From Methylococcaceae bacterium (GTDB lineage Bacteria; Pseudomonadota; Gammaproteobacteria; Methylococcales; Methylomonadaceae): a stretch of 41,493 bases of DNA. The translations under genes and the position numbers were made by a program. Positions 19,703 through 32,267 of the stretch are shown piece by piece; position 1 is the stretch's first letter; each line of letters starts with the position of its first letter. The notes below the pieces were generated by a model, which saw only the letters and a program-made list of their open reading frames with translations, was not told where the DNA came from and searched no databases. The stretch lies in the NCBI GenBank assembly GCA_005772825.1, contig SXIP01000184.1, forward strand, positions 1-41,493, written 5' to 3'.

Positions 19703-19951
19703 TTAGTTCGCAGGCTCAGCAGGTGGTGTCACGATTACTGTGGTGCTGTCGCCGGTCTCGCCCTTATTGCCTTTATTACCTTGGCTACCGGTTTCACCTT
19801 GGCTGCCTTGAGCGCCGTCGTTGCCGGTTGCACCGGCGGGGCCTGCGGGGCCCGGAACCGCAACAGGTACGTTGACCACGGTTGGGGTTTGGTCACAAGC
19901 ACTAAGGCTTAGCGCAACAATCAGCGCAGATATCATTATCGAGTAATTCAT
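19703..19951 (-). CDS. Small lipoprotein with collagen-like Gly-X-Y repeat
   Basis: Protein of 82 residues. The first 19 residues are a lipoprotein signal with lipobox LSAC, so Cys19 would be lipid-modified. The mature part has a short Pro/Val stretch (PTVVNVPVAVPG), then about eleven Gly-X-Y triplets (for example GPAGPAGATGNDGAQG) that could form a short collagen triple helix, and a Pro/Val/Ala tail. I chose the ATG at 19951 because it starts the signal peptide and AGGA lies upstream; a longer frame to 20074 adds an unlikely cytoplasmic leader. Function unknown, presumably at the outer membrane. Confidence 0.72.
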   Translation of the reverse strand: MNYSIMISALIVALSLSACDQTPTVVNVPVAVPGPAGPAGATGNDGAQGSQGETGSQGNKGNKGETGDSTTVIVTPPAEPAN

Positions 19952-20344
19952 GGGAAATCCTATGGAAGTGGAAAATTGCGGCGCAGGTTTCTTTAAAAAG
20001 TCTGCGGACAAACCCGATCGACTTGAAATGTCGCTTTCGGTACTACCTGTATAGAATAGATGCGCGCCATTCATAGTTCGGTGCGCTGGCGCACAAAGAG
20101 GAAAATTTCGCTAAGGATGAGACGTCTCAACCGGAATAATCCATTTGCGACTATGCCTGTTGAGATCAATACCGCCCTCCCCTAAAAACAGGTAAAGCAC
20201 AATGAGTGCATGCTGTTCACACCCGACGTTCCAATCCTTCACTATGCCAATGGCGTTCCAATTTGACGGCGGTTGTTGCATTGCCTGACACCGAAATGCC
20301 GGGCAACGATAAAACTGTCGCCCGACCCTTGCATGATTGAACCG
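19952..20344. other. Intergenic stretch of about 390 bp
   Basis: The gap lies between lpxD (stop 20345) and the collagen-like lipoprotein, both on the minus strand. I see short inverted repeats but no gene, no clear terminator after lpxD and no RNA gene. Confidence 0.4.
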
Positions 20345-21397: not shown

Positions 21398-21541
21398 AAT
21401 GGTCTCTGGGTTTGTCCTGTTACGGCACCGGTTAAAAATTCCCGGTAGTGTATCAAATCCACCTGGACATCTACATTAGTGAAGCATTATCAATGCAATT
21501 AATCCCCTCATGCTGCAACAACGATAAAATTTTTTTATTAC

Positions 21542-21649
21542 CTTGAACCTTTTGTCGATACCTCGCCATTAACGGTTAAGAAGACATAAAACATCTTCTG
21601 AACCGGGTCGCTTCGAGCGGCATTCAATCGATTAATTGGAGAAATAGAC
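21542..21649 (+). promoter_or_regulatory. Conserved leader of peptide gene 1 (matches leader of peptide gene 2)
   Basis: The ~108 nt before the peptide start share several blocks with 30022-30133: CTTGAACCTTTTGTCG, CATTAAC, an AGAAG/CTTCT hairpin (21579-21584 with 21594-21599), a second small hairpin (CGCT-TCG-AGCG, 21609-21619), AGCGGCATT and TAATTGGAGAA, the last being the ribosome-binding site. Conservation outside coding sequence suggests shared regulation by a transcription factor or an RNA structure. Confidence 0.72.
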
Positions 21650-21784
21650 ATGAAAGTAAAATCTAATGTTCGCGCAGGTAAAGGCGGCGCAAGTGGTGCA
21701 GGAAAAAATTCATCAGGTGACTCATCCTCAACACCTGATGTAGTGCCTGTACCCGTCTATCCAGCACGTTGCGTATTGCCATAA
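21650..21784 (+). CDS. Short secreted-peptide precursor 1 (44 aa), candidate RiPP/bacteriocin-like
   Basis: Peptide of 44 residues starting MKVKSNVRAGKGG, then a Gly/Ser-rich part (ASGAGKNSSGDSSSTPD) and a C-terminal segment VVPVPVYPARCVLP with a single Cys. A TTGGAG ribosome-binding site lies 8 nt before the ATG. The N-terminus matches that of the 34-residue peptide at 30134 (MKVKSN-I-K-AG), and both share their leader region. Gly12-Gly13 could be the double-glycine site cut by the C39 peptidase of the exporter encoded just downstream on the other strand. No TM segment is present. A strong terminator follows at 21811-21844. The role of precursor is inferred from context and the shared N-terminus; the peptide's activity is unknown. 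Confidence 0.68.
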   Translation: MKVKSNVRAGKGGASGAGKNSSGDSSSTPDVVPVPVYPARCVLP

Positions 21785-21810
21785 AACATTGATTTAATTG
21801 CAGTGCCGCA

Positions 21811-21844
21811 AGGAGAGGAGCAAAATATTGCTCCTCTCCTTTTT
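21811..21844 (+). terminator. Strong rho-independent terminator after peptide gene 1
   Basis: A perfect 13-bp stem (AGGAGAGGAGCAA, 21811-21823, with 21828-21840) closes an AATA loop and is followed by TTTT. It lies 27 nt past the stop of peptide gene 1 and between it and the convergent exporter operon. Confidence 0.9.
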
Positions 21845-21889
21845 GCGCTGAATGGAAATTAACCAGCTGTTTATTAGCAGCGATACCGC

Positions 21890-24022
21890 TCAAGGATGAG
21901 CGATAACCACTAAAGTCTGCGCGCGTTTAAATGCGCAGTTCAAACATCTTTCCAGCGTTTCCGGATCCAGTGCGGCGAAGCTTTCATCCAGAATCGTCAA
22001 GCGGGCATTTTGCAATAAGGCCCGCGCCAGGAATATGCGGCTACGCTCACCGTGCGAAAGCTGCCAGCCGGTCTCACCGACCATCTGCATCATGCCCGCC
22101 GGCATACGTTCCAGCAAATCCCCTAAAGCCAATTCCTTGCACAATGCTTCAGCTTCCTGCAAGTCTTCTTCGCTGGCCGGCCAATTACGCCCCATCAACA
22201 GATTAAAGGCCAGCGTGCCGGTGAGTATATGATTCTCATGGAACTGGGGCGCTTCCGTTGCCAGACGATGCCAGCCTTCGCCCAGCGTGTATCGGTCCAG
22301 TCCATTCAAAAGCAGCAGGCCTGAATCCGGGATACGCAGCCCCACCAACAAGGATGCCAGGGTTGATTTACCACCGCCCGAAGAACCTTCAAGCAGAATG
22401 CGCTCGCCTCGATAAATCGACAAATCGACGCCACGCAGAACAGGCTCGCCTTGAGGCCGATAACGAAATACCAAATCGCTTGCATCAACCAATTTTGTTG
22501 ACGAACCACCGGCACCGATACCGGCCATCTGTGCGGACGTTAAAAACGGCTCCCTGGAAGGTTGCCTGTCGGCGGAATGAAATAATGCCGCCACTTGTGT
22601 CCACGCGATACCCGCCCTGAATAATGCCGCCAAGCCTCCGGATACGCCGGAGAGCGCCCTGTTGGCGAGCAATAATCCGCCCAGACCCACCGCCAACCCG
22701 CCTGCCGTGGCAGTCCCGGCAATAAAACCCGGCGCCAGCCCCAGCAGGCCGACGATCATCCAGCCGCGCGATAGTCCGCCGGTAATCGGTACTATCGCGT
22801 TATCCAATTGTTTCGATGTGTGCAAATAACTTTTCATCATCCGGTCTTCCCGGGCATCCCTGCGTACTGCCGACTCCTGCGCCAGACGCGTTTTGTGTCC
22901 GACCATGCGCTCGACCAATTCATGGGTCATATCAAGGCGCATCATCGTCCAACGGCGCGAGCGCTGAAAATACCGCCAGCTCAACCCGACAGTCAAAATC
23001 AACCAGGCCAGCAGCAAGAACAAATGCAGCATACCGCCTGCACCGATAGCCAATACCCAGGCGGCAAAAACCAGTTCGATAGCGGCGATAATGACGGCAA
23101 AGCCACCGTTCAAGGCCAGTGACTCAAGGGCTTGCGATTCCATCACCCGCCCGAGCAACTGACCCGCGCCCTGATGCCGGATCGTTTCAATATCCATGCG
23201 CAAAGCACCGGCCAAAAGCCGCTTTTTAAGGATCCGGCCCATATCCAGGGCAAACACGGCATCCAGCCAGCCACCCAGCAATTGCAGCGGAACCAGCGAC
23301 AGCATCAGTAAGGCCCACGCGGAGAGCCATCCCAAATCCAGGCGGCCATTTAACGCGGCTTGTCCAATCAGGCTCCAGCCGACTATTTCCAAGCCGTATA
23401 GCAGTGCAAACACGCTCAACATCAGCAATGCCTGACGCGGCAGATGCGCATGCGCAAGTTGCCTCCAGAATCCGGTGGTCGGCGGCAAGCGCAGTATCCA
23501 GCAAGCACCGATGCGCTGGGTGGCAAGCCGTTCTTTAAGCATGACTGCCCTGACCCGTTGTCGCTGCCGTTCGGGCACATCGGCGAGGATTAACAAACGA
23601 TCTATTTCAGCGCTCACCGGCGCTTCGTAGCGTTGACAGAGAGCCGCTCTCAGCGTTTCAACCGAACACCGATGCAGGCGTAAATCCGGTCCGAGCAACT
23701 GCAACACAGCGGATTTCGACTTGAGTAACAACACAAAGCGGGCGTCAATGCCCTCCCCGAGTTGAAACAAAGCCGGCCCAGCGCTACGCAGTAAGCGCCC
23801 GAATTCAGCGACCGATGTTTCAACCGGTTCGGCTTCAATGCCTAGCCGATCGCTGACCCATTCAATCCAGCGGCCCAGATCGGCGCTGTCCTGCACTTTC
23901 AACGGTTCAGGCACCGGGTTATCGTGCGCTGCCGCATCCAGTTTGGCAAAACGGGCCAGTTCTTCAATGGCCTCTCCCAAGCGCGAAAATGGCCAGGCCA
24001 TTGCGTTGATGTCGTTGTTCAT
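21890..24022 (-). CDS. Peptide-export ABC transporter, second subunit without C39 domain (NHLP type)
   Basis: Protein of 710 residues: an N-terminal region of about 190 residues without the C39 catalytic residues, a six-helix ABC exporter TM domain (about 195-470) and a C-terminal nucleotide-binding domain. That domain shows Walker A EGSSGGGKST, a variant signature LSHGERSRIFLARAL, Walker B LTILDES and the H-loop LVVIAHP. It ends right after the H-loop, so the C-terminal tail is very short. It is 40 nt downstream of the C39 exporter gene. Paired ABC proteins, one with and one without a peptidase, are the pattern of NHLP-type bacteriocin export operons, where both subunits are thought to act together. 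Confidence 0.87.
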   Translation of the reverse strand: MNNDINAMAWPFSRLGEAIEELARFAKLDAAAHDNPVPEPLKVQDSADLGRWIEWVSDRLGIEAEPVETSVAEFGRLLRSAGPALFQLGEGIDARFVLLLKSKSAVLQLLGPDLRLHRCSVETLRAALCQRYEAPVSAEIDRLLILADVPERQRQRVRAVMLKERLATQRIGACWILRLPPTTGFWRQLAHAHLPRQALLMLSVFALLYGLEIVGWSLIGQAALNGRLDLGWLSAWALLMLSLVPLQLLGGWLDAVFALDMGRILKKRLLAGALRMDIETIRHQGAGQLLGRVMESQALESLALNGGFAVIIAAIELVFAAWVLAIGAGGMLHLFLLLAWLILTVGLSWRYFQRSRRWTMMRLDMTHELVERMVGHKTRLAQESAVRRDAREDRMMKSYLHTSKQLDNAIVPITGGLSRGWMIVGLLGLAPGFIAGTATAGGLAVGLGGLLLANRALSGVSGGLAALFRAGIAWTQVAALFHSADRQPSREPFLTSAQMAGIGAGGSSTKLVDASDLVFRYRPQGEPVLRGVDLSIYRGERILLEGSSGGGKSTLASLLVGLRIPDSGLLLLNGLDRYTLGEGWHRLATEAPQFHENHILTGTLAFNLLMGRNWPASEEDLQEAEALCKELALGDLLERMPAGMMQMVGETGWQLSHGERSRIFLARALLQNARLTILDESFAALDPETLERCLNCAFKRAQTLVVIAHP

Positions 24023-24062
24023 TGGTAATGACTCGCGCGCGATAAATCAAAAATGTGGCTAT

Positions 24063-26882
24063 TCATTCGCTATTTCCTTTAATGCCGCCATCCTGAACCC
24101 GGATGCGCCGCCATTGCCCGCTATGCCACATATCCCGGCTCACCACGTCTTCGGCATTGAGTAAATCGCGGTAACGCGACGGCCGACGGGCCAGCTCAGC
24201 AGGCACCCCATCTTCAACGATACAACCGTTTTCAACCACCAACACCCGGTTGAATGTTAAGGTTTCACCGACGTCATGGGTCACACACAGCAGCGTTGCA
24301 CCACGCCACCACTGCCTGGCCTCACTGAGTAAGCTATGCCGCTGGTTGCGGCTCATGCCACGGAACGGTTCGTCAAGCAACGCCAGGCGCACGGACGTTT
24401 GCTGCAATGCGCGCCCCAAACGCACGCGCTGGCCTTCGCCGCCCGACAGCAAAGCGCCGCTTTCACCTAGACAGGTTTGCAGGCCGGAAGGCAATTTTTG
24501 CAGTACGCCGCGTAACGCTGCAGCATCAATGACATCGGCGATTTTATCGAAACCCTGGTCATCGGAACTGTAATTGAGATTATCCAGAAACGAGCTATTC
24601 CATATCTGGATAGCCGGATCGACCCACGCGGTTTGTTGACGCAAAGCTTGCAGATGCACACTATTCAAGGGCCTGCCGTCAACCAGCAATTGCCCGTCGG
24701 CAAGCCGGTGCCATCCGAGCAATAAGCCGATAAAACTGGATTTACCGGCGCCCGATGGACCAACAATAGCAACATGCTCGCCCGGTGCAATCGTCAGATC
24801 AATGTCCTGCAAAATCGAATGGCCCGCCGCCAGCACACTGCCGTTTTTGATATTGATCCCGACGCCGGTATTCTGATAACTCCCTGCTGTATGGGCAGCT
24901 GAATCGATAAAGCGGCATTCTGCTTCCTCTCCAGCGGGAGAGGGTTGGGGTGAGGGGGGAAAAAATGTAGCGTTATGTTCTGCTACCTCTAAATCTCCCT
25001 GATTCTCACTATGTAGTTCTGCTGATTCACTTTCCTCCGGCGCCGAAAGCGGCTCAAGCAGCCTCAGCAACACATTGCGTTGCGCCGGATATTGCTGCGC
25101 CAAAGCGGTCAGTCTACGACCGATGGCCGGTAACTTTAACGCCCAATAAATCAATAACAAATCACCACCGCTAACGCCGCCGGAACGCAAAAAATGCTGA
25201 AACAGCAGCAGTTCGACCAATCCCAGGCAGATTAATGACTGCACACCGGAAATGAACAATGACAAGCTGATCAGGCTTCGGCTCGATCGCGCCCACTCCA
25301 CCAACAAGCCTTCATGTTCGCGGCTCACCGCCTGTTCCGCCCGATGCGTACGTATCGGCACCAAGCCCAGCAGGGCGTCGAGATAGAAACTGAATAATGC
25401 GCCGGAATGACTGCGCACCCGCAAATCCCTTTCATTCAGCAGAGGCTGCGCCAGTAACGGCAGGCCAATCGCCAGCCCGGTAATGACAAATGCCAACAGA
25501 CTACTGGCAGAATCAATAAGCATGATGCCGGTCAGCGTGAAGATAATATCCCACAGCGTCTGGACAAACTGTATACCCAGACCGGGCACCAAGCGGGTCA
25601 AATGAATACTGTGACTGCGCTCGGCCATGTCTGAAATAGGCCGACTCTGGAAATAGCGGTCGGTCAGGTGCGGTAATTTGCGCAGTAACGCCATGCGCAG
25701 ACGTGCTTCCAGGTGGCGACCGAAGCGCAGCGACTCCATCGCTATCGGAATTTCGATCAACAGCAACACCGAGGCAAATGCAATTAAGCCAAGCACCGCG
25801 GCCAGGCGTTGACTGGCCAGATTGAGCTCCCAGGCAATATCGAAAATACCCCGAAACAACAATGCTTCAATAAGTATGGCCCCTGCCGAAATAGTGAGTG
25901 CGCCGATCAATGCAAGCGGCGACAGGATACCGTCGGTTTGAAGCAAATCCAGCAGTGTCCGACCCGGATTCAGCGGTTTTTCGTTAAGCGCAGCCTCAAG
26001 CTCGGGCGAAAGCCGAACTTGTTCAAATTCAGGTTCAGCGTCTGTCTGCGTGGGTATTAGCTGTGAGCGTACTTTCGCCTTTAATAACACCGCGCCCTGT
26101 AACAGCAGTTGCTCCTGACTATCAGGCTCATCGCTTGACTGCGCTGTCACCGTCCAATAAGAAGCGGGGATGACTTTAAATAAATCGTCGGTTCCCGTTT
26201 GTTCGACCAGCGTCCTCACCAGCCTGACAGCGCGCAGACCGGTTTTAATCCCGTTAGCCGTCACGATGGAATTAACCAATCGGACAGCGGCATCCAGCGT
26301 TGCCACACTTAACCAGCCGGAATCCTTTAATGCCAGGTCGATCAATGCCTTTGCTTCGCTGCCGGACGCGCCCAGCATCGACAAGCGTTGCCGTAGCGGT
26401 TTAAGAAACTCATCCGAAGCTGCCCACTGTCGCCAGTCGGCAGCAGGGACGGGTAAGCGATGACGGTAAATTTCTTCGTGAAAACGCCGGCAATGCACCC
26501 AGCGCCTGCCGATTGCCGGGTCCATCACTTGCAACCAGGGGCCGTAACGTCGCCAGACCACGACAAAATGCGTCGCTCCGTCAGCATGACGCACAACCAC
26601 CATGACAGGCAAAACGGCAGCTTCCGATAACAACACATGATCCACTGGAATCATGACCTGCTCGGCCTCAATACCTAACTGGTTGGCGACGACCTCCAGC
26701 ATATCGATAGAAGTACCGTCCACATCGGTTTGGCAGGCTTCGCGCAGACGCCCGTAACTGACCGGAATATAAAAACCTTCCAGCAAACATTTTAACGATG
26801 CAGGGCCGCAGTCCATCGCCGATGTCTGCACGACCTCGGGCACCAGCCAACGCCGCTTTGCCGTATTTTTCACGGTGCTCAT
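24063..26882 (-). CDS. C39-peptidase ABC exporter (NHLP/bacteriocin type)
   Basis: Peptidase-containing ABC transporter of 939 residues. It would cut leader peptides after a double glycine on the cytosolic side and export the product. The N-terminal C39 domain has its full catalytic set: Gln19, Cys25 (SAMDCGPASL), His105 (GATHFVVV) and Asp121 (VMDPAIG). After a long middle region (about 150-310) come the TM helices (about 320-600) and a nucleotide-binding domain with Walker A GPSGAGKSS, signature LLSGGEGQRVRLGRAL, Walker B LALLDEP and H-loop CVTHD. The linker before this domain contains FPPSPQPSPAGEEAE, a translated copy of a dispersed intergenic repeat. The gene overlaps hlyD by 4 nt (ATGA). 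Confidence 0.92.
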   Translation of the reverse strand: MSTVKNTAKRRWLVPEVVQTSAMDCGPASLKCLLEGFYIPVSYGRLREACQTDVDGTSIDMLEVVANQLGIEAEQVMIPVDHVLLSEAAVLPVMVVVRHADGATHFVVVWRRYGPWLQVMDPAIGRRWVHCRRFHEEIYRHRLPVPAADWRQWAASDEFLKPLRQRLSMLGASGSEAKALIDLALKDSGWLSVATLDAAVRLVNSIVTANGIKTGLRAVRLVRTLVEQTGTDDLFKVIPASYWTVTAQSSDEPDSQEQLLLQGAVLLKAKVRSQLIPTQTDAEPEFEQVRLSPELEAALNEKPLNPGRTLLDLLQTDGILSPLALIGALTISAGAILIEALLFRGIFDIAWELNLASQRLAAVLGLIAFASVLLLIEIPIAMESLRFGRHLEARLRMALLRKLPHLTDRYFQSRPISDMAERSHSIHLTRLVPGLGIQFVQTLWDIIFTLTGIMLIDSASSLLAFVITGLAIGLPLLAQPLLNERDLRVRSHSGALFSFYLDALLGLVPIRTHRAEQAVSREHEGLLVEWARSSRSLISLSLFISGVQSLICLGLVELLLFQHFLRSGGVSGGDLLLIYWALKLPAIGRRLTALAQQYPAQRNVLLRLLEPLSAPEESESAELHSENQGDLEVAEHNATFFPPSPQPSPAGEEAECRFIDSAAHTAGSYQNTGVGINIKNGSVLAAGHSILQDIDLTIAPGEHVAIVGPSGAGKSSFIGLLLGWHRLADGQLLVDGRPLNSVHLQALRQQTAWVDPAIQIWNSSFLDNLNYSSDDQGFDKIADVIDAAALRGVLQKLPSGLQTCLGESGALLSGGEGQRVRLGRALQQTSVRLALLDEPFRGMSRNQRHSLLSEARQWWRGATLLCVTHDVGETLTFNRVLVVENGCIVEDGVPAELARRPSRYRDLLNAEDVVSRDMWHSGQWRRIRVQDGGIKGNSE
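24926..24961. repeat. Dispersed CCCTCACCCCAACC-type repeat inside the C39 exporter gene
   Basis: The sequence CCTCTCCAGCGGGAGAGGG followed by TTGGGGTGAGGGGGGA closely matches the intergenic copy at 37891-37923, and a fragment of the same type occurs near 41340. Here it is in frame and adds PPSPQPSPAGEE around residues 640-652, in the linker between the TM and ATPase domains. Confidence 0.75.
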
Positions 26883-28072
26883 AAAGGCCTGGGTTCGGTC
26901 GGAGGCGCTTGCGGCTTCGCTGTGCCGGACATGAACTGACCCGCCGCGCGCAAGATCATCACGGCTGGCGTCATCTGCTCGATACTCACCTCGATGGAAC
27001 CGGGTAATCCGTGCTGCATAATGATAGGCGATTTGGCCGACAGCTCCGGCGTAAACTCCACACGCACCCGGTTATCCCTTATCTCGGTACCGACCCGGCT
27101 GACTCTGGCTTGAATCGTTCCATATTCAGCCCACGGGAAGCCGTCCAGGCGCATTCGCGCGACCTGTCCCGGATGAATTTTCCCAAGCGCATCGGCAGGG
27201 TAAAAATCCGCAACAATTCTAAGTTTGCCGCGCGGCACCACCGTAGCCAATTTTTCGCCCGCCGCAACATAGGCGCCTACTTGTAACGGCGCTACGTCAC
27301 CGATTTGCCCGCTTGCGGGAGAGCGGATAAAGTGCTTTTCAATATCCTGCTTAAGCCGTTCAATGGTCATTCGGGTGGTTTCCAGTTCACCATTCAACCT
27401 TGCCGCCTCACGTTTGAGATTTTCGATCTCCGCCTGCTCCTGGTGTATGCGCGTTTCGGCGTCCAGTTCCGTTCGTTGAATATCGGACGACAACGCATCC
27501 CTCGCGGAACTCAGTTTTTGCGACTCCGCTTTGGCGCGTAACGCTTCAATAAGCGGAATACGCCCGGAACCGCTCAGTTCCGTCAAGCGGCGTTCATGGT
27601 CTTTGGCAAACTCCGCCGCAGCAATCGCTTCCTTATGCCGCGACTGAGCACTCCGCGTTACCGCAAGCGAGGCCCGATGATCTTGGGATTTGGCTTGCTC
27701 CAGTGCGGCAATCTGTTTTTGTATCGAGGCAATCTGTGGAGGCAAGGCCTTCAATCTGGTCTCTTCCTCGTGCAGGCGGAGCTTTTCGCTGCTCGCATCA
27801 AGTTCAATCAAAACTTCTCCGGCCTGAACTTCTTGTCCCAATAACAAGCGGGTAGCAACAATCTTGCTTGCGACCAGTGCAGCAACCGGATGGGCGGATT
27901 GATTGACTTCCAGACGCGCTTTAGTGGACGTTTCGTAGACGGTTATCCCGGCAAGGAAAAACCACGCCGACCATCCGGCCAGGATAGATACAGCAATCAG
28001 CCATGCGATAACCGCATATCTGGACGAGTCATTGGCAAGCGAGCGCGTGGTTCGAGAAAATGAAGTGGGCAA
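26879..28072 (-). CDS. HlyD-family periplasmic adaptor of the peptide exporter
   Basis: Protein of 397 residues with one N-terminal TM helix (about 20-42), a barrel-sandwich (lipoyl-like) half-domain near VAALVASKIVATRLLLGQEVQAGEVLIELDASS, a long coiled-coil hairpin (about 93-245), the second lipoyl half (SPASGQIGDVAPLQVGAYVAAGEKLATVVP) and a beta-barrel end. Such adaptors join the inner-membrane ABC exporter to a TolC channel. It is the first gene of the operon hlyD-C39 ABC-ABC, with its stop overlapping the next start, and is divergent from the tolC-like gene. Confidence 0.92.
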   Translation of the reverse strand: MPTSFSRTTRSLANDSSRYAVIAWLIAVSILAGWSAWFFLAGITVYETSTKARLEVNQSAHPVAALVASKIVATRLLLGQEVQAGEVLIELDASSEKLRLHEEETRLKALPPQIASIQKQIAALEQAKSQDHRASLAVTRSAQSRHKEAIAAAEFAKDHERRLTELSGSGRIPLIEALRAKAESQKLSSARDALSSDIQRTELDAETRIHQEQAEIENLKREAARLNGELETTRMTIERLKQDIEKHFIRSPASGQIGDVAPLQVGAYVAAGEKLATVVPRGKLRIVADFYPADALGKIHPGQVARMRLDGFPWAEYGTIQARVSRVGTEIRDNRVRVEFTPELSAKSPIIMQHGLPGSIEVSIEQMTPAVMILRAAGQFMSGTAKPQAPPTEPRPL

Positions 28073-28652
28073 AAAATCTCCCCGGACTATTCGCCCGGTT
28101 TTAACGTATCGATTGTTGTTTATTGCGATAAACAGGCAAAAGGTTTAATCATCAAGCCAATTTGTTATGGAAACCAATCAACTGACTTTGCCTACGCCAA
28201 CAGGTGAAAGAAGAAAGTTAGAGCAAAACAATAGCTTTTCCAGTCCTGGGTCAAAAAATCAATTTAAAAAACTTCACGTTGACAATGAACCTTTTTTTCG
28301 TTTTTTGTAATTCACAGGATTATGAAGTTTTGAGTCACTGCCTGGAATTGCCTATTTCAAATCACAGAGCTTTCTTATCGTTCCCACGCTCCGGCGTGGG
28401 AACGCAGTGGCAGACGCTCCAGCGTCGCGAAACATAAAACGGGATAAGTCCTTGTTATATTTTAATATTACACAACGCTGGAGCGTTGGTACCTGCATTC
28501 CCACGCCGGAGCGTGGGAACGATAAGGCTAAGACTTGGAAGAATAATAACTCCCGCAAAGGCGCGAAGCCGCCATGAAAAATAAATAGAAAAACTTTGGC
28601 GTCTTGGCGCGAGATAAATTCACGATAAAACCATGACAACTATTATTAAACT
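28073..28652. other. Divergent intergenic region between exporter operon and tolC-like gene
   Basis: The 580-bp gap must hold promoters for both directions. On the minus strand AAACCTTTTG (about 28136-28146) repeats the core of the CTTGAACCTTTTGTCG block of the peptide leaders, and ATGAACCTTTTTTTCG occurs on the plus strand near 28285; both may be chance. TTGACA at about 28279 could be a -35 box, but no well-spaced -10 is visible. The element 28374-28526 and a CGCAAAGGCGCGAAG-type repeat (about 28553-28620) fill the rest. Confidence 0.45.
28374..28526. repeat. MITE-like element with palindromic terminal inverted repeats
   Basis: The left arm beginning CTTATCGTTCCCACGC (28374) is matched in reverse complement by the right end (28526) without mismatch for 29 nt and with a few changes to about 50 nt. 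Each arm contains its own hairpins (CCCACGC-TCCG-GCGTGGG and CGCT-CC-AGCG). The 153-bp element has an AT-rich centre and no coding potential. The CGTTCCCA ends resemble those of the element at 2189-2399, so the two may be relatives. Confidence 0.8.
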
Positions 28653-29999
28653 ATGGAATTTGTAAGCAAAAAACTGTCCGCTGTCATTGTTATCGCTGTA
28701 GCCGCCATTTCGCCGTTAAAGGCGCAGAACTTATCCGACATTTACGAACTGGCCTTACAAAATGACCCGGTGCTGAAACAGGCTCAAGCCAAACAATCTG
28801 CTATCGGCGAAGTAAAAAACCAAAGTATCGCACGCTTTCTACCGACTATTTCGGCGACGGGCTCGACCAAAAGAGAATGGCTGCATAATAAAAAAGCCGG
28901 CGAAGATTTTCGCGGCGATCTTATCAACCAGCAATTCTGGAGCAACACCTTTGCCATTAATTTAACCCAGCCGCTCTTCCACTGGGACTACTGGATTCAA
29001 TTAAACCAATCAGACAACCAGATCGCACAGGCTGAAGCGGGCTATCAAGCAGAGCTGCAAAACCTGATGGTGAAAACGACAGAAGCTTATTTCAATGTAT
29101 TATCGGCACAGGATAATCTCGAATTTTCCCGTGCCGAAAAAGAAGCCATCGTCCGGCAACTTGAACAGGCCAAGCACCTTTTTCAGGCGGGCCTGATTGC
29201 AATAACCGATATCCATGAAGCACAGGCCGGCTTCGATCAGGCCAGCGCCAATGAAATAGAAGCGGCCAACTCTCTCGATAATCAAAAGGAAGCATTGAGA
29301 GAGATCATCGGCGAAACCGATGCGCTTCTGGATTCATTGGGACCGGAATTGCCTTTGCTTAAACCTGAGCCAGCCGATATTACAGCCTGGAGCGATTCAG
29401 CAGAAGTCAGTAATTTCAGCATTATTTCCGCATTCAATCAGGCCGAAGCAACGCGCAAAACCATCGAATTACAGCGTAACGGCCATTTACCGCGCCTGGA
29501 TCTGGTGGCGTCGCTGGGCGCTTCCGACGATAACAGCAGCTTTGGTTTTCGCGGCGATACGCAAAGCGTAGGCGTTCAGCTGAATGTGCCGCTGTTTGAA
29601 GGCGGTGCGGTGAATTCCAGAACCCGCCAGGCGGGTTACGAATACGAAGCGGCAAAAGAAAAATTAATCGCGACAAAACGGGCGGTGAAGCGTCAGGTAA
29701 AAGACGCCTATCGCGGTGTGCTGTCGACGATAAGTCGTGTGGCCGCGCTGAAAGCTACCGTTACATCCGCGGAAAGCGCGTTAACAGCCACCGAAGAAGG
29801 CTTCGAGGTAGGTACGCGGACAATGGTGGATATATTAAACGAGCAAAGAAATTTATACCGGGCCAAACGCGATTTTTCGCGCACCCGCTACGATTACTTA
29901 TTGAACAGCCTCAAGTTAAAACAGGCGTCAAGCAGCCTGAGCGAAGCAGATCTCGAACAGATTAACGGGTTATTGGTTGCCAATACCGCTGACCACTGA
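28653..29999 (+). CDS. TolC-family outer membrane efflux protein
   Basis: Protein of 448 residues with a signal peptide (cleavage near SPLKA at 24) and the two-fold TolC repeat: LSDIYELALQNDPVLKQAQAKQ, then long helices, and a second repeat beginning near SIISAFNQAEATRKTIELQRNGHLPRLDLVASLG. GLIAITDIHEAQAGFDQA and FEVGTRTMVDILNEQRNLYRAKRDF are typical helical-barrel stretches. It would form the outer-membrane channel for the HlyD-ABC exporter encoded divergently, completing a type I-like secretion route. The ATG at 28653 has no good ribosome-binding site, but no better start gives a signal peptide. Confidence 0.93.
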   Translation: MEFVSKKLSAVIVIAVAAISPLKAQNLSDIYELALQNDPVLKQAQAKQSAIGEVKNQSIARFLPTISATGSTKREWLHNKKAGEDFRGDLINQQFWSNTFAINLTQPLFHWDYWIQLNQSDNQIAQAEAGYQAELQNLMVKTTEAYFNVLSAQDNLEFSRAEKEAIVRQLEQAKHLFQAGLIAITDIHEAQAGFDQASANEIEAANSLDNQKEALREIIGETDALLDSLGPELPLLKPEPADITAWSDSAEVSNFSIISAFNQAEATRKTIELQRNGHLPRLDLVASLGASDDNSSFGFRGDTQSVGVQLNVPLFEGGAVNSRTRQAGYEYEAAKEKLIATKRAVKRQVKDAYRGVLSTISRVAALKATVTSAESALTATEEGFEVGTRTMVDILNEQRNLYRAKRDFSRTRYDYLLNSLKLKQASSSLSEADLEQINGLLVANTADH

Positions 30000-30021
30000 C
30001 AAGGAGAAAAAAGTCTATCGG

Positions 30022-30133
30022 CTTGAACCTTTTGTCGCCATCCGGACATTAACAGACAAGAAGAAAAACACTTCTTCTTAACTGAAACGCCGCATCAAGC
30101 GGCATTGAATTTTTTCTAATTGGAGAATCGAAA
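30022..30133 (+). promoter_or_regulatory. Conserved leader of peptide gene 2 (matches leader of peptide gene 1)
   Basis: This copy of the shared leader has the CTTGAACCTTTTGTCG block (30022-30037), CATTAAC, an AAGAAG/CTTCTT hairpin (30058-30063 with 30074-30079), a GCCGC-ATCAA-GCGGC hairpin (30089-30103) and CTAATTGGAGAA as ribosome-binding site. The second hairpin is the counterpart of CGCT-TCG-AGCG at 21609-21619, with different bases but kept pairing. Confidence 0.72.
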
Positions 30134-30238
30134 ATGAAAGTTAAATCAAACATAAAAGCAGGTCGTCATGGTGCAGATGATGCTCCCGGTCATGTTCGCG
30201 GCGGTCACGGTCGCGACGATGCGCCAAACCACGGCTAA
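30134..30238 (+). CDS. Short secreted-peptide precursor 2 (34 aa), His/Asp/Gly-rich, candidate RiPP/bacteriocin-like
   Basis: Peptide of 34 residues. Its N-terminus MKVKSNIKAG matches peptide 1 (21650) in eight of ten positions, the other two being conservative. The remainder is a tandem duplication: HGADDAPGHVRG and HGRDDAPNHG, rich in His, Asp and Gly with no Cys and no hydrophobic stretch. Repeated HG-x-DDAP units could bind metal or be sites of modification; both are guesses. Gly-Gly at 23-24 or Gly13-Ala14 are possible C39 cleavage sites. TTGGAG is 8 nt before the ATG. The gene lies 135 nt past the tolC-like gene and may be co-transcribed with the 621-residue protein. Confidence 0.68.
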   Translation: MKVKSNIKAGRHGADDAPGHVRGGHGRDDAPNHG

Positions 30239-30253
30239 GCGTCGGCTCATTTA

Positions 30254-30345
30254 ATCGGGCGGGATGCCCGGTATTTTAGACATCATAAGCCATGCAGGAG
30301 TGACTTTAATTCACTCTCTAATTTGCGAATAAAGACTCTCCTGCA
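30254..30345 (+). terminator. Hairpins between peptide gene 2 and the downstream gene
   Basis: CGGGC-GGGAT-GCCCG followed by GTATTTTA (about 30258-30278) looks like a moderate terminator or attenuator. Then GAGTGA and TCACTC pair around CTTTAAT (about 30298-30316), nested in a wider GCAGGAG/CTCCTGC pairing (about 30295-30345). The pair could let peptide 2 be made in excess over the next protein. Confidence 0.5.
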
Positions 30346-30401
30346 ACCCCATCACCTGAATAATTCCAGCCTATTGCTTCCAGCACCAAAAATGGAAAGA
30401 C

Positions 30402-32267
30402 ATGACTAATTCAATAACATCAGGCACAGAACAAACCGGCCCTGAACCCTCCCGCTGCCCCATGCATGCCGGACATTCACTTTCAGAAGGACTCGGTATC
30501 GAAGATGAACTGGTCTTTCCTGCGCATAAGCGGGTGGTCACGCAGTACTCGACGGATGCGGACGGACTTACCGAATTGCATCTCTACTACGGCGATAAGG
30601 AAATTTCCTTCGACGAGCCGGAGCTGTTCGCATTCGGCGAGAATCTCGCCAAGCAATCGCGCTTTATTGCCGGAACCGCCACAAACTGGGGCGATGATTA
30701 TGATTGGCCGCGTATTCAGGCTTTACTGGAACAACTGCTTGAAGAGGGCATCCTGCACTACGCAAGCCGCTATGATGCTGCATCCAGCGGCCCTGAAGGC
30801 GCCTGCCCTTCGCCGCTGCCTCCTGCCCTGACGACAGTAGCTCGCACCTGGTTCGAATGCGAAGCGATTACCGAAGAACTGACCGGGCAATCCTTGCCGT
30901 TGGCTTACCTGGAATTAGCCATCCCGATCTGGCGAATCGCCCACATGGTACTGGATGCGGAAGGACGCCAGGTCGGCGAGGCCAACGTATTCCCGAAGGC
31001 GCTGCGTTTGGACATTCCCACCGATTGGCGGATATGCCAATACCCCGGCAGCCGCTACCAAAGCGAGTTGCCGATGAACGTCACCGCTCTCAAAAGCATG
31101 CGCAACTACTGGCCGCAAATGATGGCGGCTTTGCTGCGGATTCGGGAGGCCTACCTGCTGCGCTTTCCCCATGCCCGACAAGGCATGACCGTAGGCGATA
31201 TTGAAATACTGTCCACATTGGTGCTGGTCGTACCCACTTACCTGCTTATGCGTAGCGGAGAACACATCGAAAACGGGCAATTACATCCGGCCTTATCGTC
31301 GATGTTTCGCGTCACCGACGGCTTGAGAACGACGATGCGTGAAATGCTTTTTGTGCCGCTCGCTGGTTCAACGCTGGACCCGGATACGCCCATGAGCAGC
31401 AGCGAAATCTATGCTTACGCCGAACGCACGAATTCTTTCCACTCGTTTCACGGCGTTTGCGCCGGTCCCAAGGCGATGATCGAGGAATTCCTGAGGGTGC
31501 TGGTTGAAGGACAGTTACAAACGGACACCCAATCGACGCCGCTTGATGCGCCTGTGCAGACTGCGCTGGAAAATCTGGAACCGGCATTCGACTACGGTCT
31601 GTATGGCTTGCAGGTACATTCGATTGCTTTCTCGCTGTGGCCGGCGATGACTCGCACCTACACACAGCTTTTGGCTATTGTCGACGCCTGGTCCGAAAAA
31701 GGCTCGGACACCTTTCTGAATCTTCAGGAAAACCTGCGCAGCAAAGTACATATCCTGAAAACAGAAACACTTTACGCCACCGAGGAATGGCGCACCAATC
31801 GCGAACGCATCTACTCGCTCACCTATGAACAGTGCGCATTGGGACTCGACCCGGAGCTATCCGAACAAGCGCTGTCGGAACGACTGACCCCGGTTCGGGC
31901 AGATTATCATGCGAGCGTTGCCGATCAGCTTCGCGTGTTATTACAGCAGCGCTTATGCGGTACGAATGTTACAGACAGTCCCGACGTAAGAAATTTACTT
32001 GGCTGCCTGATGGATTATTTCCTCCGTGAACAGGCGATATTACGCGTGGCAACGGAAATTCAGCAACAGATCAACGACCTGCTCGGACGCGCACAACCCG
32101 AAGCCCCTATCTCCGGCGCCTTGCTGGATATACACAACCAATTGCAAGGCAGCGGACCCAGACGACTGCCTTATCTGGAACAAGAGCTTGAGGACAGACT
32201 CGGCATTCGTGTCGTCGTCACAAAAGACCGTATAGAAATTACAGAATCAGGTATACCGTGCCAATAA
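30402..32267 (+). CDS. Large protein of unknown function in the peptide-export cluster
   Basis: Soluble-looking protein of 621 residues that I do not recognise. The N-terminus has a Cys/His cluster (SRCPMHAGH, about 18-26). A first domain (about 30-130) with LHLYYGDKEISFDEPELFAFGENLAKQSRFIAGTA and EQLLEEGILHYA resembles a small winged-helix or leader-binding module in length and pattern. The rest (about 150-580) appears all-helical, with SEIYAYAERTNSFHSFHGVCAGP and YGLQVHSIAFSLWP as notable His-rich stretches. There is no signal peptide. Position after peptide gene 2 suggests it modifies, binds or protects against the peptides. The ribosome-binding site GGAAAG precedes the ATG. Its last 21 nt overlap the convergent trhP gene. 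Confidence 0.75.
   Translation: MTNSITSGTEQTGPEPSRCPMHAGHSLSEGLGIEDELVFPAHKRVVTQYSTDADGLTELHLYYGDKEISFDEPELFAFGENLAKQSRFIAGTATNWGDDYDWPRIQALLEQLLEEGILHYASRYDAASSGPEGACPSPLPPALTTVARTWFECEAITEELTGQSLPLAYLELAIPIWRIAHMVLDAEGRQVGEANVFPKALRLDIPTDWRICQYPGSRYQSELPMNVTALKSMRNYWPQMMAALLRIREAYLLRFPHARQGMTVGDIEILSTLVLVVPTYLLMRSGEHIENGQLHPALSSMFRVTDGLRTTMREMLFVPLAGSTLDPDTPMSSSEIYAYAERTNSFHSFHGVCAGPKAMIEEFLRVLVEGQLQTDTQSTPLDAPVQTALENLEPAFDYGLYGLQVHSIAFSLWPAMTRTYTQLLAIVDAWSEKGSDTFLNLQENLRSKVHILKTETLYATEEWRTNRERIYSLTYEQCALGLDPELSEQALSERLTPVRADYHASVADQLRVLLQQRLCGTNVTDSPDVRNLLGCLMDYFLREQAILRVATEIQQQINDLLGRAQPEAPISGALLDIHNQLQGSGPRRLPYLEQELEDRLGIRVVVTKDRIEITESGIPCQ

Follow-up and report, generated by a model that had tools for sequence, protein, structure and literature searches.

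What do two very short open reading frames (ORFs) beside a C39-type peptide exporter encode in the genome of a Methylococcaceae bacterium, and are they its cargo? The locus lies on contig SXIP01000184.1 (assembly GCA_005772825.1), which we analyzed at its full length of 41,493 bases and call the window; the host genome is 3.7 Mb and 77% complete. It combines genes for two micro-peptides, a C39 peptidase-ATP-binding cassette (C39-ABC) exporter, a second ABC protein, an HlyD-family membrane fusion protein, a TolC-family channel and a 621-amino-acid (621-aa) protein. We put the probability at about 65% that the peptides belong to a new ribosomal peptide family, with a 10-residue leader, that is handled like ribosomally synthesized and post-translationally modified peptides (RiPPs). 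This would probably be a new RiPP family exported by a C39 transporter and modified at one Cys. Judged from its sequence, the system appears to work like a RiPP or microcin secretion system, and the locus is a good place to expect a bacterial natural product of a new kind.

An earlier note on this DNA proposed that the two ORFs encode related precursors. The ORF listing confirmed its coordinates, and the two peptides do have MKVKSN-(V/I)-(R/K)-AG in common over 10 residues, with divergent remainders. The unusually short leader it had put at about 10–13 residues corresponds to a common part of 10. Its layout has to be corrected in two respects: the precursors, described as divergent, are both encoded on the plus strand, and the second does not mark an end of the region but is flanked by tolC and the 621-aa gene. 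Across the family the first 10 residues read MK(V/I)K(S/T)(N/K)(V/I)(R/K)AG and the rest of the peptide varies. We collected 21 members from 13 loci (L and G numbers below denote loci and genomes); 19 of the 21 come from the methanotroph order of the window's host, and the G609 copy, identical to that of G146, was not counted again. Lys2, Lys4 and Gly10 occur in 21/21 members and Ala9 in 20/21, while positions 3, 5, 6, 7 and 8 are V/I, S/T, N/K, V/I and R/K/Q; since members were gathered with the leader pattern, part of this conservation is built in. The DNA of the leader codons shows selection at the protein level, because pairwise comparison of codons 2–10 among the 21 members gave 756 identical, 638 synonymous and 496 non-synonymous comparisons. 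With a conserved leader, a variable core and dedicated machinery nearby, the ORFs have the precursor anatomy of RiPPs.

A regular expression for the leader matched a micro-ORF near every full-length 621-aa homolog then collected. Written as a codon-degenerate DNA pattern, its strict form was found in 7 of 200 related genomes. A relaxed form, adopted after two MKVKTK variants were seen, matched 11 of those 200 genomes and 12 of 311 genomes across the order; a reversed control pattern had no match in either set. In a sample of 369 genomes from the class, 4 of which belong to the order, the only match was the window's own genome, and none of the 365 genomes outside the order matched. One contig of a Ramlibacter metagenome-assembled genome (MAG), 67% G+C (L011), carries two family peptides, so the family probably reaches the Burkholderiales unless that contig is misbinned. 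At the E-values used, the window peptides matched no NCBIfam, Pfam or PHROGs family, and such precursors are therefore easily missed. Leader and core strings were absent from the open-access literature searched, which excluded subscription papers and preprints, and no description of the family was found there.

The cores fall into four types by a grouping of our own. Type I peptides are short, with one Cys and a hydrophobic end (L010, L014, L017, L036, L037 and G609, the last at L097). Type II peptides are Gly/Ser-rich and end in an SRCVGI-like sequence (the first window peptide, two each in L011 and L038, and one in L016). Type III peptides are Cys-free and rich in His, Gly, Lys or Arg (the second window peptide, two in L034, and one each in L035 and L016). 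Type IV peptides have 22 residues and a C-terminal (N/Q)RC(E/D)(T/N)FRR, with two copies in G090 and three in G169. Tandem copies occur in the family. Exactly one Cys is present in 16/21 peptides and none in 5/21, and an Arg adjoins the Cys in 15 of the 16 single-Cys peptides. Two neighboring genes may be recorded here: a TPR-repeat protein gene stands between the two ABC genes of the type IV loci (L057:13522-14700, L056:728-1906), and a 969-aa protein with a multicopper-oxidase domain is encoded about 1.3 kb from the type III peptide of L035 (L035:11449-14358, G138:C36).

The exporter goes with the peptides, as the earlier note had supposed. We looked for it in the 200 related genomes, which do not include G609, and counted an HlyD relative as close at E ≤ 1e-60, a threshold of our choosing. 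Close HlyD proteins occurred in 10/200 genomes, all of them among the 11 with the leader pattern. The note had reckoned with relatives that keep the exporter but lack the peptides; 10/10 genomes with HlyD at this threshold carry the leader pattern. It had also proposed a genome search for MKVKSN-type ORFs with a co-occurrence test, and both the exporter and the 621-aa homologs fall within the peptide genomes. Fisher's exact p over the 200 genomes was 4.9e-16 for peptide and HlyD and 3.0e-12 for peptide and 621-aa protein, values that are too small because related genomes are not independent. Exporter and peptide are on different contigs or far apart in G001, G138 and G146, and are unlinked in the latter two. 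The Cys (in MDCGPA), His (in HF) and Asp (in MDPA) of the C39 domain, which we take to be its catalytic residues, are identical in 10/10 aligned exporter homologs. Relatives of the second ABC protein adjoin the C39-ABC gene in L014, L017, L034, L053, L054 and L057. The label "NHLP-type" given to the exporter did not hold: HlyD scored 43.8 bits against a curated cut-off of 156.2, the C39-ABC 164.6 against 853.3 and the second ABC protein 102.7 against 709.4 (TIGR03794/03796/03797). A C39-ABC relative 40.9% identical to ours is encoded on a Piscinibacter gummiphilus plasmid (L081, NZ_CP136338.1), with a second ABC gene, moeB and a DUF692 gene adjacent. No leader-type peptide was seen in the scanned stretch of that plasmid, its first 8 kb being judged from annotation only; perhaps the plasmid encodes a different peptide system whose exporter is related to ours.

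At E ≤ 1e-20 the 621-aa protein was found in 8/200 genomes, all among the 11 peptide genomes; named carriers are Methyloglobulus morosus, Methylomonas koyamae and MAGs of Methylococcales or Methylococcaceae. The relatives detected in G008, G035 and G058, at E about 1e-15, are shorter and belong to a different family. In 9/10 distinct 621-aa loci, a set that includes L011 and G609, a single-Cys peptide gene lies directly downstream on the same strand at a distance of 40–442 nt. In G003, His-rich peptides occur with the exporter and without the 621-aa protein. Going by gene neighborhood, the 621-aa protein goes with single-Cys peptides rather than with His-rich ones.

We undertook structure prediction on the 621-aa protein. 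AlphaFold2 modeled the N-terminal domain alone (residues 28–125) as beta strands followed by helices with a pLDDT of 89.8. When this model was compared with the PDB by Foldseek, 9 of the 16 top matches (E 0.024–0.62) were peptide-modifying enzymes bearing a RiPP recognition element (RRE), or a close relative: ThcOx three times, the PbtF RRE, McbBCD twice, TruD, a heterocyclase and the oxidase BmdC. The PbtF match is named as an RRE; the other chains are taken to bear RREs. On the strength of the model, the N-terminal domain is likely an RRE. Residues 178–567 match a family of about 420 aa that is without the N-terminal part (hhalign probability 99.7%, E 3.9e-25). One genome has two members of that family near genes for a methyltransferase, a Rieske oxygenase and a haloperoxidase-like protein, and this neighborhood suggests that the helical part is an enzyme. 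Stand-alone relatives of the helical part were located at L018:2574-3830 and L018:14710-15987 and in L019, L020 and L021. Cys353 is kept in 14/14 sequences of the 621-aa and ~420-aa family alignments. Pfam gave no match over cut-off for either family, nor did NCBIfam match the helical domain, and a PDB sequence search gave nothing credible (best E 0.09 for the 621-aa family, none for the ~420-aa family).

Three identities for the 621-aa protein were considered and set aside. A PrnB-type enzyme found no backing: PF08933 exceeded its cut-off in 0/21 genomes; G018 gave the one weak match, and G000 and G001, both carriers of the 621-aa gene, gave none. A PqqD identity by sequence was dropped after profile comparison with the N-terminal domain gave no match. 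A P450-like reading of the stretch around Cys353, considered by eye, was dropped because Pfam reports no P450.

Features of the locus in the window, with position, strand and basis of assignment
Feature	Positions	Strand	Basis
Promoter-like motif TTGAACCTTT-N16-TTAAC, 5' of peptide 1	21543..21573	+	Motif count versus shuffles
Peptide 1, 44 aa, type II: Gly/Ser-rich, one Cys, C-terminal YPARCVLP	21650..21784	+	ORF and leader pattern
Second ABC protein, 710 aa	21890..24022	-	PF00005; Pfam reports no C39 domain
C39 peptidase-ABC exporter, 939 aa	24063..26882	-	PF03412 (1.7e-17), PF00005
HlyD-family membrane fusion protein, 397 aa, TTG start	26879..28072	-	PF13437
TolC-family outer-membrane channel, 448 aa	28653..29999	+	TIGR01844, 340.5 bits (cut-off 225.15); PF02321
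Promoter-like motif TTGAACCTTT-N16-TTAAC, 5' of peptide 2	30023..30053	+	Motif count versus shuffles
Peptide 2, 34 aa, type III: His/Gly/Asp-rich, Cys-free	30134..30238	+	ORF and leader pattern
621-aa putative peptide-modifying protein	30402..32267	+	Co-occurrence with peptide; no Pfam match
RRE-like N-terminal domain of the 621-aa protein (residues 28–125), putative	30483..30776	+	AlphaFold2 model, Foldseek matches

The two window peptides are each preceded by the promoter-like motif, 76 and 80 nt upstream; it has 2 matches in the window and 0 in 100 shuffles of it. Elsewhere (97 fetched loci, 684 kb, overlapping) it stands 5' of one peptide each in L016, L035 and L038. The exact motif was not found before the peptides of L011 and L034 or the second peptides of L016 and L038. 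It also precedes an extracytoplasmic function (ECF) sigma factor gene in L055 and, lacking its first T, the one in L038. Both loci have genes for an ECF sigma factor, an anti-sigma-like protein and an S8 subtilase in a row (L055:5753-8449, G001:C42; L038:9809-12456, G115:C227); in L038 their neighbors are the genes for TolC, the 621-aa protein and both peptides, and in L055 they lie beside an HlyD remnant. The anti-sigma-like assignment comes from a weak zf-HC2 match in one genome and homology in the other, and, judged by eye, the L055 protein has a C-terminus that looks similar to a subtilisin-propeptide domain. We infer an auto-regulated ECF regulon, its ECF genes being seen at L055 and L038 in two relatives.

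The type I loci have additions of their own. All six encode a MauG/cytochrome c peroxidase-type protein of 734–746 aa; PF03150 exceeded its cut-off in 4/4 proteins scanned, the other two were identified by BLAST, and two CxxCH heme sites were present in each of the 5/5 read. PF03150 and the two CxxCH sites place the 745-aa type I protein in the MauG/BCCP superfamily. Its best NCBIfam match is the MbnH model, and the L017 protein scored 110.4 bits against the 362.85-bit cut-off of that family (TIGR04039). There was no match to this protein at E ≤ 1e-8 in the window, L011, L016 or L038; the window's own genome has a relative, 36% identical, on another contig. A different PF03150 protein, of 566 aa, is encoded upstream of hlyD in L034. 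Just 5' of the type I peptide we found the 17-nt string ACGTGCGATGGGCACGG, which occurs once each in 6/311 genomes, the six type I genomes (a reversed control had 1 match in the 311). Two adjacent hairpins lie in the same place (L017:8089-8132, with equivalents in L010, L014, L036, L037 and L097). The second, beside ACGTGCGATGGGCACGG, is paired in 97% of cells and beats slid versions of itself; it is no more than suggestive because 36/500 shuffles reach its covariation score. Rfam had no match for this upstream element in the 7 loci scanned.

Three further observations concern the window itself. A 66-nt inverted repeat between hlyD and tolC (28374-28526; 83% complementary, 21-nt loop) resembles a small mobile repeat. 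A group II intron match scored just over its gathering score at 64-140 (41.7 bits against 40), and at 19703-20074 an ORF for a small, lipoprotein-like product contains a Gly-repeat of the collagen type (PF01391).

We propose the following sequence of events. In the window's subtype, an ECF sigma factor would switch on the peptide genes. The RRE-like domain of the 621-aa protein would bind the leader, and its helical domain would modify the peptide, with the single Cys as the most likely site. The C39-ABC protein with HlyD and TolC, together with the second ABC protein, would remove the leader, probably after Ala-Gly, and export the product. In the type I subtype, the MauG-type di-heme protein may act on the exported product. 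The same exporter probably carries the Cys-free, His-rich peptide too, as a second cargo that is not an obligate substrate of the 621-aa protein.

Several results weigh against this proposal. The leader ends in AG, not in GG or GA (AG in 20/21 peptides, GG in 1/21), so the cleavage site is inferred. One peptide genome, G115 (73% complete), has no HlyD at E ≤ 1e-60, and in G001 both HlyD and the second ABC protein are fragments, so that exporter, judged on these two proteins, may be decayed. Three genomes (G003, G090 and G169) have peptide and exporter with no 621-aa protein at E ≤ 1e-20, and the G090 and G169 peptides have Arg-Cys all the same. The window is the exception among the 10 distinct 621-aa loci, since its 621-aa gene follows the Cys-free peptide. 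No RRE-type Foldseek match of the N-terminal domain reached 0.001 (the best had E 0.024), the two top matches were MINA53, a JmjC protein, and the PqqD profile did not match. The full-length model of the 621-aa protein is only fair (pLDDT 69), and its fold search gave 0 matches at E ≤ 0.001 (best 0.13), leaving the helical domain without a fold or function match. The promoter-like motif precedes only 5 of the 11 type II and III peptides.

Some of these points would also fit peptides that are left unmodified, microcin- or pheromone-like, and are simply cleaved by the C39 domain and exported, with the 621-aa protein serving, for example, in immunity or regulation. G003, G090 and G169 manage without that protein, and the export machinery has the components of class II microcin systems as an excerpt of PMC9746304 describes them. 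We consider this unlikely: the putative cleavage site is AG where GG or GA would be expected, the 621-aa gene with its RRE-like domain is linked directly to single-Cys peptides, and the Rieske oxygenase, methyltransferase and haloperoxidase-like genes near relatives of the helical part suggest an enzyme. That the short ORFs are chance or regulatory leader ORFs and encode no peptide is very improbable indeed. They are very short and matched by none of the libraries searched, and against this stand the empty reversed controls in 200 and 311 genomes, synonymous divergence in the leader, tandem copies, and a joint occurrence with the exporter that extends to G138 and G146, where the two are unlinked.

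A further account concerns role and is compatible with the RiPP reading: the peptides may be secreted to bind metal (copper), as methanobactin does, through single-Cys or His-rich cores. All type I loci have the MauG-type di-heme protein with its MbnH-like best match, the type III peptides are His-rich, and methanotrophs offer a precedent in CorB/SACCP, di-heme proteins tied to copper-binding CorA/MopE (PMC3912023 and PMC3621798, in excerpts). The MbnH-family score is below its cut-off, no TonB-dependent receptor or DUF692 protein was seen among the scanned peptide neighbors (not every ORF was scanned), and the window, L011, L016 and L038 are without a close MauG-type relative, all of which leaves the account quite improbable in our view. 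Returning to the RiPP reading, there is a more far-reaching form of it that we offer tentatively and regard as doubtful. It would make these peptides a new class of RiPP, matured by an unnamed family of RRE-like plus all-helical enzymes, aided in one subtype by a MauG-type di-heme oxidase; the Arg-flanked Cys would become a new group, possibly a metal ligand, and the product would be the methanobactin counterpart of gammaproteobacterial methanotrophs.

If the RiPP reading is right, natural-product chemists gain a peptide family that is compact, open to testing and served by a C39 exporter despite its very short leader, as well as an enzyme family without an annotated domain. In methanotrophs one could then test directly whether small exported peptides are substrates of MauG-type oxidases, and whether these organisms have a metal-binding peptide besides methanobactin.

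Of the known systems, class II microcins and double-glycine export share with our locus a short precursor with a constant N-terminus and variable remainder, and a transport set of C39-ABC, HlyD-type membrane fusion protein and TolC-family channel. An excerpt of PMC9746304 defines class II microcins by a double-glycine (GG or GA) cleavage site. Unlike them, our peptides have a 10-residue leader that ends in AG in 20/21 members and in GG in one, and are accompanied by a second ABC protein and, in 8/11 genomes, by the RRE-like fusion protein. No immunity gene was recognized in the locus maps, which were not screened for small ORFs; genes of this kind vary greatly. NHLP/NHLM export likewise has C39-ABC, second ABC and HlyD genes in one operon, but all three of our proteins fall far under the curated cut-offs, and no Nif11- or nitrile-hydratase-type precursor was matched. 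In RRE-dependent azoline-type pathways (TruD, McbBCD, PbtF, ThcOx) the RRE resembles the N-terminal domain of the 621-aa protein in predicted fold, although that similarity is weak (E ≥ 0.024) and Pfam and PDB searches identify the helical domain with none of their catalytic domains.

Methanobactin (MbnA, with MbnB/MbnC and MbnH/MbnP) provides the last comparison. The characterized methanobactin precursors shown in an excerpt of PMC3621798 have two modified Cys, whereas our peptides have one (16/21) or none (5/21). The exporter and the candidate modifying protein also differ, and no DUF692 protein (MbnB) was seen among the Pfam-scanned neighbors, a survey that covered part of the ORFs and no whole genomes. 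What the two have in common is a methanotroph host, precursors of 22–57 aa with a basic N-terminus, Arg-Cys in many cores and, in the type I loci, a MauG/MbnH-like di-heme protein.

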